Shown piece by piece: positions 29,941 to 34,717 of a stretch of 45,326 nt of DNA. Source of the stretch: Gemmatimonadota bacterium (lineage in GTDB: Bacteria > Gemmatimonadota > Gemmatimonadetes > Gemmatimonadales > Gemmatimonadaceae). Position 1 is the first letter of the stretch. The number at the start of each line of letters is the position of its first letter. The stretch is from positions 1 to 45,326 of the forward strand of contig VHBO01000013.1 in the NCBI GenBank assembly GCA_016871895.1. Reading direction: 5' to 3'. The notes below the pieces were generated by a model, which saw only the letters and a program-made list of their open reading frames with translations, was not told the origin of the DNA and did no database searches. A program made the position numbers and the translations under genes.

Positions 29941-30747
29941 ATGCGATCCTCCTCGTCGCTCCGTCGGTCGCTCCCCGCGCTGGCGCTCCTGTGCACCGCC
30001 GCGTGCGTCGACACGCTCGACATCCCCGATGCCCGGTACGGCGTGGTCTCCGTCACCACGTACGCGGATGACATCGCCGGCACCACGATGGCGCCCGAGG
30101 TCATCTTCTACGACAAGACCGACCTGCGCATCACGCCGCCGGGCGCGGACTCCTGTCGCTTCGCGACTTACACCGCGAATCCCAACGTCAACACGAACAG
30201 CTTCACCTTGGGGGCGGGCGACTATCTGCTCTCGACGATCCGGACGCGGACTGACACCCTGCGCCCGTACTTCGTCGGCAACCTGACGATCTATCGGCCA
30301 CCCACCGGGCGGACCATCCCGTTCACCCCCGGGGACACGCTCACGCTGCAGGTCCCCGGCGCTCCGGCTGGGTTCCCCGCGATCACCGCGAACGTCCGGA
30401 CGGCTGAGGCCTTCACCCATGAGCCGGTGACACCGCCCGCCGATGGGCAGCCGCTCACGCTGACCTGGACGCCGGCGCCCCAGCCGGGCTCGCTGATGAC
30501 CTTCGCGCTCCGGTACGCGAACAGCTTCTCCACCGACCAGCAGCCGAACGAGCAGGTGTTCTGCGGCTTCACCGATGATGGGAGCGGCACGATCCCGGCC
30601 GAGTACGTCGAGTTCTGGCGGAATGCACCGGTGGCTTCGCGCAGCGTCCGCGCGATCCGGCTCCGGGTGAAGGAGGTCGTCATCGACTCCCGGACGCGGC
30701 TTGCCTTCGTCTCCACGTACGGCGTGCCGCTCCTGACGGCGCCGTGA
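29941..30747 (+). CDS. putative lipoprotein of unknown function
   Basis: A 268-residue secreted protein. The signal peptide is 'RRSLPALALLCTAACVDTL', with a lipobox-like 'TAAC'. The mature region is beta-strand-rich and Thr/Pro-rich ('GAGDYLLSTIRTRTDTLRP', 'TIPFTPGDTLTLQVPG', 'LTLTWTPAPQPGS'), like an Ig-like or lipocalin-style surface lipoprotein. I know no family for it. ATG 29941 places the signal peptide at the start; an upstream GTG at 29899 overlaps the -10 box and is less likely. The stop overlaps the aspartase-like gene (GTGA). Confidence 0.7.
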   Translation: MRSSSSLRRSLPALALLCTAACVDTLDIPDARYGVVSVTTYADDIAGTTMAPEVIFYDKTDLRITPPGADSCRFATYTANPNVNTNSFTLGAGDYLLSTIRTRTDTLRPYFVGNLTIYRPPTGRTIPFTPGDTLTLQVPGAPAGFPAITANVRTAEAFTHEPVTPPADGQPLTLTWTPAPQPGSLMTFALRYANSFSTDQQPNEQVFCGFTDDGSGTIPAEYVEFWRNAPVASRSVRAIRLRVKEVVIDSRTRLAFVSTYGVPLLTAP

Positions 30748-32760: not shown

Positions 32761-32775
32761 AACCGGTGCCTCGAG

Positions 32776-32859
32776 TGCCGAAGGGGGGACTCGAACCCCC
32801 ACGGGCGTACGCCCACTGCGCCCTGAACGCAGCGCGTCTACCAATTCCACCACTTCGGC
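32776..32859 (-). tRNA. tRNA-Leu (anticodon CAG)
   Basis: Read on the minus strand the sequence folds as a class II tRNA with a long variable arm. The acceptor stem is GCCGAAG/CTTCGGC, the D arm contains GGTAGACGC, the anticodon loop TTCAGGG carries CAG on a CTGCG/CGCAG stem, and the T arm has GGTTCGAGTCC. The discriminator is A; CCA is not encoded. It is convergent with the Rrf2 gene. Confidence 0.97.
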
Positions 32860-32923: not shown

Positions 32924-34717
32924 ATGACCAAGCCACGGACCGACGAGGGGATCGCGACGATCGCCCGCAATGCACGTGCCCGCCACGACTACGAGATCCT
33001 CGAGACGTGGGAGGCCGGCATTATGCTGCTCGGCACCGAGGTGAAGTCGCTGCGCGATGGGCGGGCCCAGATCACGGACGCGTACGCGGTCGTGAAGGAT
33101 GGGGAGGTCTGGCTGCTCAACGCGCACATCGCCCCGTACTCGCACGGCAACGTGTGGAACCACGAACCGACCCGAAGCCGCAAGCTCCTCCTGCACGCGC
33201 GGGAGATCCGCAAGCTGATCGGGGCGGTCGAACGCAAGGGGCTCACGCTCGTGGCACTCGAACTCTATTTCAAAGACGGCCGCGCGAAGGTCCGCATCGG
33301 ACTCGCCCGCGGCAAGAAGCTCCACGACAAGCGTGCCGATGCACGCGAACGCGATGCGAAGCGCGAGATGGCGCGCGCGGTCCGTACCGTGAAGGGGCTC
33401 GTCCTGGCGCTCGCACTCGGCCTGGCGATGCCGCTCGTCGCGGCACCGCCAGGCCCCGTGATCCGCGTGCGGAGTGCCGCGGGGGACACGGCGGTCGCCG
33501 TGGTGGCGAGTCCCTCCGGCGGTGCCGTGCGCGCGGATGTCGTCGCGCGTCTCCTCGGCGGGGCACTCGAGGTGCGTGGACCCGGGCGCTGGCGGCTGGC
33601 GATTGGGGGCGCTGCGTTCGATCTCGAGGCGGGATCTCCGTTCGCCGCGTACAACGGTTTCCCTCTGCCGCTCGTCGAGTCCCCGCGGTTGGTCGATGGG
33701 GCGCCTGCCGTCCCGCTGCAACTCTTTAGCGAGATTCTCCCGCGATTCGACGTTGGCGTGCGATGGGATCGCACCGCAGGAGCGCTGCATCGTGACCGGC
33801 AGGGGACGGTCGCGCGCGTGGCGCCGGTGGACGAGGGGCGGCCGGACCGCGCCGCTGCTCCGCGCGCCGAATCCACCAGACGCGATGGCAGTGGGGTCGC
33901 GGCCGAGGGGGCGCTCGGGGCCGCGGCGGCGCTCGGCGCCGGGAGCGAGGCGGCGGGTCGCACATCCCCGGCCCCGCGCCTCTCTCGATCGTACACCGTC
34001 GTCGTGGACGCCGGGCACGGCGGACGCGACCCCGGTATGCGTGGCGCCGTCGTCGACGGCCGCGCGCTGAGCGAGGCCCGGATCACCCTCGAGATCGCGA
34101 AACGCGTCAAGGCGGAACTCGAGGCGCTCGGGCTCCGGGTGCTGATGACCCGCACGACGGATACTCTGATCAATCTCTTCCATCGCGGCCCGATCGCGAA
34201 CCGCGCGAGCGGCGACCTCTTCGTCTCCGTGCACGTAAACGCGGCCAATCCGAAGTGGAACAATCCCACGGCGGCGCGTGGCTTCGAGACATTCTATCTC
34301 TCGACGGCACGGACCGAGGATGAAGCGCACGTCGCCGCGATGGAAAACGACGTCGTCCATTTTGAGACTGAGGCCGATGCGCCCCGTGGCAACGATGCGC
34401 TCGCCTTCATCCTGAACGACCTAGCTCGGAACGAGCATCTGCGGGAGTCGAAGGAGATCGCGGCGGTGGTGCAGCGCCGGCTCGCCGGGATCCACCCGGG
34501 GCCGAATCGCGGGGTGAAGCAGGCCGGCCTCGCCGTCCTGTCCACGGCGTATATGCCGGCGGTGCTCGTCGAGGTCGGCTTCGGGTCCAACCCCGCGGAG
34601 GCGCGGTGGATGTCGAGCGACGCGGGGCAGGCCGATGCCGCGCGCGCCATCGCCGAGGCGGCGCACGAATATCTCGTCGACTACGACCGGCGGCGCGCCC
34701 GGCCTGCCACGCGATGA
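32924..34717 (+). CDS. SmpB fused in frame to N-acetylmuramoyl-L-alanine amidase
   Basis: A 597-codon uninterrupted frame with two unrelated modules. Residues 1-155 are SmpB, the tmRNA-binding protein of ribosome rescue: '[19 protein letters not shown]', 'IAPYSHGN', '[19 protein letters not shown]', and the complete basic tail '[18 protein letters not shown]'. From codon 156 (GTG 33389) a perfect signal peptide follows ('[18 protein letters not shown]'). Next is a copper-amine-oxidase-N-like domain (about 180-280), a low-complexity linker, and an Amidase_3 domain. That domain has zinc His365 ('[10 protein letters not shown]'), 'FVSVHVNA' and the Glu in '[11 protein letters not shown]'. SmpB acts in the cytoplasm and the amidase outside it, so one chain is puzzling. 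Internal initiation or a lost stop is likely. Confidence 0.8.
33389..34717 (+). other. possible separate amidase reading from internal GTG
   Basis: Starting at GTG 33389, the same frame yields a complete 442-residue exported Amidase_3 protein with its signal peptide at the very N-terminus. The GTG sits in GTGA, and the TGA (33390-33392) lies one frame away from SmpB. GTGA start-stop overlaps are frequent in this genome, so this looks like an original SmpB-stop/amidase-start junction in which SmpB has slipped into frame. There is no Shine-Dalgarno sequence before the GTG. Offered as an alternative to the fusion. Confidence 0.5.

Follow-up and report, generated by a model that had tools for sequence, protein, structure and literature searches.

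The locus considered here raises the question of how a single uninterrupted reading frame can encode two proteins belonging to different compartments, and how a cell could obtain both of them from it. In the window, that is, the whole stretch of 45,326 nucleotides that was analysed, an ORF of 597 codons plus stop (32924-34717, plus strand) starts with ATG and runs from smpB to the end of an amidase gene without any internal stop. The first-pass annotation had read this as one open frame passing from SmpB through a signal peptide into Amidase_3, a description that the ORF and the Pfam and NCBIfam matches confirm. The SmpB module (residues 1-155, 32924-33388) matches Pfam PF01668 at residues 13-154 with 206 bits, far over the curated cut-off, and also exceeds the cut-off of the NCBIfam SmpB equivalog PRK05422 (216 bits). 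The C-terminal basic tail (GKKLHDKR...EMARAVRT), including the DKR motif, is present and aligns with the tails of relatives, but as encoded it has no free C-terminus: the ORF continues for 442 codons beyond SmpB, as it does in a second genome of the same genus (G008, see below). The N-terminal signal peptide expected of an exported Amidase_3 is absent, and the hydrophobic signal core is instead internal (residues 156-173, 33389-33442); signal peptidase I may cut behind residue 173 or close to it. It is followed by a beta-rich, stalk-like N-terminal domain of the amidase, conserved in relatives and modelled with high pLDDT (residues about 181-290, 33464-33793), by a disordered, fast-evolving linker with pLDDT under 50 (residues about 294-346, 33803-33961), and by the Amidase_3 catalytic domain (PF01520, residues 359-579, 33998-34660), which scores 152 bits, far over the curated cut-off, and in which the alignment shows the AGHGG, HVN and VEVGF motifs to be all present. 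Upstream of the fused gene, on the opposite strand, ARAGORN places a tRNA-Leu(CAG) (32775-32859, minus strand). The genome of the window (G000) comprises 2.28 Mb in 129 contigs and is 96% complete; both G000 and G008 contain one SmpB match and one Amidase_3 match each, and in G000 the two matches are the fused ORF.

Such a frame could be produced by a sequencing indel, as the first-pass annotation had suggested among its options. Both genomes are indeed draft assemblies (G008 is labelled a MAG), and earlier SmpB fusions have been attributed to sequencing errors (PMC4131195). However, the same in-frame junction is present in G008 (JARIFA010000054.1, isolate LOR9m-Oct20, locus L046), whose nucleotide identity to G000 over the region is 84-90%. 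An identical junction is shared by two separately assembled genomes in which the bases around the locus differ by 10-16%, with many synonymous differences on both sides of it and no homopolymer at it, so that a sequencing error fails as an explanation and a sequencing or assembly artefact is extremely unlikely. It had also been proposed that many relatives with an SmpB ending at this position would reveal an artefact; the relatives do have such an SmpB, but the artefact does not follow, since G008 carries the fusion as well. From these sequence comparisons, the fused gene looks real.

The bases at the junction are GTGA (33389-33392), with GTG (codon 156, 33389-33391) in the SmpB frame and TGA (33390-33392) in frame +1, exactly as first described, and one of the GTGA stop-start overlaps claimed for other parts of the window was verified at 30744-30747. 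Among the 17 genomes of the genus that were searched, 15 have the smpB gene, and the fusion occurs only in G000 and G008. In the other 13, SmpB ends in ...ALRTR-stop or similar and the genes are separate, most of them with an amidase start codon overlapping the smpB stop (ATGA or GTGA), an overlap that is lost in the fused pair. Compared with these relatives, CGG ACG CGA TGA has become CGG ACG GTG A, a net 2-nt deletion that removes the last arginine and the stop codon of SmpB. Consistently, counted from the first base of smpB, the amidase ATG starts 467 nt further on in G012 and the GTG 465 nt further on in G000 and G008, and smpB is otherwise without indels between these two genomes and G012. 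The GTG, which had been put forward as an amidase start, coincides with the position of the ancestral amidase start codon in the 13 non-fused genus members, and the fused chain reads RTVK, so that a basic residue is retained near the old end of SmpB. The comparison thus shows a once-separate, overlapping smpB/amidase pair joined by a net 2-nt deletion; the separate origin and the tiny indel proposed at first sight stand, whereas the 1-nt size given for the change does not. The deletion brought the amidase into the frame of SmpB in the common ancestor of two sister Gemmatimonadota species, and the presence of the same in-frame junction in the second species argues against chance.

Beyond the genus, the fusion seems to be an exception within a long-standing gene arrangement. 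Both genes are present and not fused at 67 distinct loci (13 from the same genus and six from outside the phylum), usually with a 4-nt ATGA/GTGA overlap at the loci examined. No other frame long enough to reach the amidase was found among 110 close relatives with SmpB, and no further fusion was found among the phylum and family SmpB matches listed. An smpB gene followed by an Amidase_3 gene is also observed in Krumholzibacteriota and Eisenbacteria (L064, L066, L067, L106, and L118), so that this gene order probably predates the phylum. Therefore, the fusion is a recent, local event in an old gene pair. Several other long SmpB frames (618 codons in G187, 433 in G138, 387 in G169, and several of 240-310 codons) were considered and rejected, as they consist of an upstream open frame with SmpB stopping normally. 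Similarly, a 770-codon RF1 frame in G000, considered as a sign of a wider fusion habit, is only an upstream extension, with RF1 and PrmC separate and overlapping. SmpB was not found in G001 and G003 of the same genus, which are incomplete drafts (71% and 88% complete), probably because of missing contigs. The best-matching records for the window are Gemmatimonadota MAGs, several of them, by name, from lakes or groundwater.

G000 and G008 are sisters in both the SmpB tree and the amidase tree, so that one joining event explains both. In pairwise comparisons of these two genomes (NG86), which are estimates from one genome pair and short stretches, SmpB residues 1-140 show dN 0.018 and dS 0.23 (dN/dS about 0.08), the amidase domain dN 0.029 and dS 0.59 (about 0.05), and the signal-peptide region dN 0.29 and dS 0.71, while the linker approaches neutrality (dN/dS about 1) and also changes in length. 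Judged from these values, the SmpB and amidase halves are both under strong purifying selection after the fusion, which implies that both products are functional. The root-to-tip lengths of SmpB, 0.21-0.23 in the fused pair and 0.23 in the unfused neighbours G012 and G013, give no sign of accelerated SmpB evolution in the fused pair, and this match indicates that its SmpB is not decaying.

Our preferred reading, to which we assign a probability of about one half, is a genuine fusion by 2-nt deletion that is translated as one chain and cut at its internal signal, with both products functional. Because the frame stays open from SmpB through the whole amidase, ordinary termination cannot yield bare SmpB. 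The sequence predicts that smpB and the amidase are translated as one chain; the former N-terminal signal peptide, now internal, would then engage Sec while SmpB stays in the cytoplasm, and signal peptidase I would cut near residue 173, freeing the mature amidase in the periplasm, while SmpB would keep a stub at its C-terminus, about 18 hydrophobic residues that may be shortened later. Some additional amidase may start internally, at ATG149 or GTG156. In both species, hydrophobicity over 19-residue windows of the chain peaks at the junction, and a scan with the -3/-1 rule finds plausible signal peptidase I sites in both G000 and G008. An AlphaFold model (mean pLDDT 74, pTM 0.44, thin alignment), in which the placement of the domains is unreliable, shows the SmpB barrel with confidence and has one helix at 133-165, through which the tail of SmpB passes into the signal core. 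In G000, the likely cut site is followed by A-P-P. A proline near the cut site can hinder signal peptidase, so that this motif counts against cleavage, and a further point against this route is that SmpB might be retained at the membrane by its hydrophobic stub. In structures of trans-translation, the SmpB tail fills the mRNA channel and swings 62 degrees upon translocation, with tmRNA H5 packing on the end of the tail and closing the mouth of the channel (PMC8363625), and the SmpB of Tropheryma naturally carries 44 extra C-terminal residues (PMC4131195). Therefore, an uncut appendage of 440 residues should clash with the geometry of the tail and H5, whereas a short stub is plausible, which favours cleavage. 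It is rather unlikely, but conceivable, that the gene has become a stable two-product polyprotein, in which the signal peptidase cut replaces the SmpB stop, ribosome rescue and wall cleavage are fixed at 1:1, and the stub may tether SmpB at the membrane, with trans-translation taking place beside the Sec translocon.

The amidase could instead come mainly from internal initiation at GTG156 or at the in-frame ATG of codon 149 (33368-33370), the ORF being real and the full-length chain a minor product, either acting as SmpB itself or cut back by proteases in the cytoplasm. We consider this possible but doubtful. GTG156 occupies the ancestral start position, initiation at ATG149 would give a signal peptide of normal appearance that contains three basic residues, and codons 145-152 are nucleotide-identical in G000 and G008 while most surrounding codons differ; however, with only 20 of the 140 SmpB third positions differing, this invariance may be due to chance, and the predicted Shine-Dalgarno pairing is weak at both sites (-1.8 to -3.2 kcal/mol). 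Overlapping ATGA/GTGA pairs can be coupled by termination-reinitiation (PMC6728339), and the 4-nt overlap of the relatives would couple smpB and the amidase in this way, but this route disappeared together with the stop in the fused pair. Indeed, every SmpB chain would still be a fusion: in a frame without a stop, internal initiation could supply the amidase alone, never SmpB alone. Bare or tagged SmpB could arise from recoding or nonstop control, and so provide feedback, if ribosomes slipped by +1 onto the overlapping TGA or if the mRNA were cut within the junction and tmRNA tagging followed. The out-of-frame TGA overlaps the GTG in both species and a strong hairpin is predicted in G000, but ACC/ACG-GUG is no known slippery sequence, conservation of the hairpin does not extend to G008 (z +0.94), and, since an A at the fourth position of coding sequences is common in bacteria (PMC5850271), the GTGA needs no special cause; we regard such recoding as very unlikely. 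The hairpin (GGCCTGGCG...CGCCAGGCC, window 33419-33455) lies within the signal-peptide coding region of G000, and as a conserved RNA structure at the junction it was discarded.

The tmRNA gene is complete in both G000 and G008 (RF00023 match, ARAGORN). Its tag reads ANSDFALAA in the fused pair (L134, G000:C21:22372-22731; L132, G008:C5:26610-26969) and ANNNFALAA in the six other genus members checked. All seven genus genomes checked, including G000 and G008, encode a third, short RF-1-domain protein, which in G000 is ArfB-like, with a GGQ motif and a basic tail (L156, G000:C2:142946-143320, minus strand); a search for RqcH as a rescue backup returned nothing over the cut-off. It may thus be asked whether SmpB is crippled by the fusion, a loss that the cell would survive by leaving ribosome rescue to ArfB, a codon-independent release factor. 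The presence of the short RF-1-domain protein in all seven genomes and the alteration of the tag in exactly the fused pair would agree with such a loss, although the latter coincidence, being a single evolutionary event, proves nothing. A useless SmpB would decay, in conflict with the low dN/dS and the ordinary branch length of the fused copies; the tag has also kept its final ALAA, and the ends of the tmRNA are intact. Therefore, we consider a crippled SmpB improbable. The purifying selection would be compatible with a fused SmpB that is active in trans-translation.

A survey of 4542 SmpBs in 2014 described them as single-domain proteins, explained five multi-domain reports as artefacts, and found a longest extension of 44 residues (PMC4131195), a rule to which the two-species SmpB-amidase fusion appears to be an exception; no report of such a fusion was found in the open-access literature searched. 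This SmpB fusion has persisted through a speciation while selection acted on both of its halves. It amounts to a natural experiment that asks if SmpB can bear a large addition at its C-terminus, or if signal peptidase can stand in for a stop codon. More generally, a cell can survive the joining of proteins from different compartments when a stop at a 4-nt overlap is lost.

The fused chain resembles known SmpBs in its complete barrel, GKKLHDKR motif, basic tail, and equivalog score, and differs from them in lacking a stop after the tail. Likewise, its second part has the catalytic and stalk domains of AmiC/AmiA-type N-acetylmuramoyl-L-alanine amidases, as does the neighbouring gene in relatives, but its signal peptide is internal, behind SmpB. 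Most relatives keep the arrangement of pairs coupled by termination-reinitiation, whereas the fused species have lost the stop and hold the pair in one frame. The cytochrome b/c1 precursor FbcH of Bradyrhizobium japonicum is a polyprotein cut at an internal signal peptide, and the mode proposed here would be the same, with one chain whose first part stays inside and whose exported part is freed by signal peptidase. Nevertheless, the parts of FbcH belong to one complex, while the jobs of SmpB and the amidase are unrelated.
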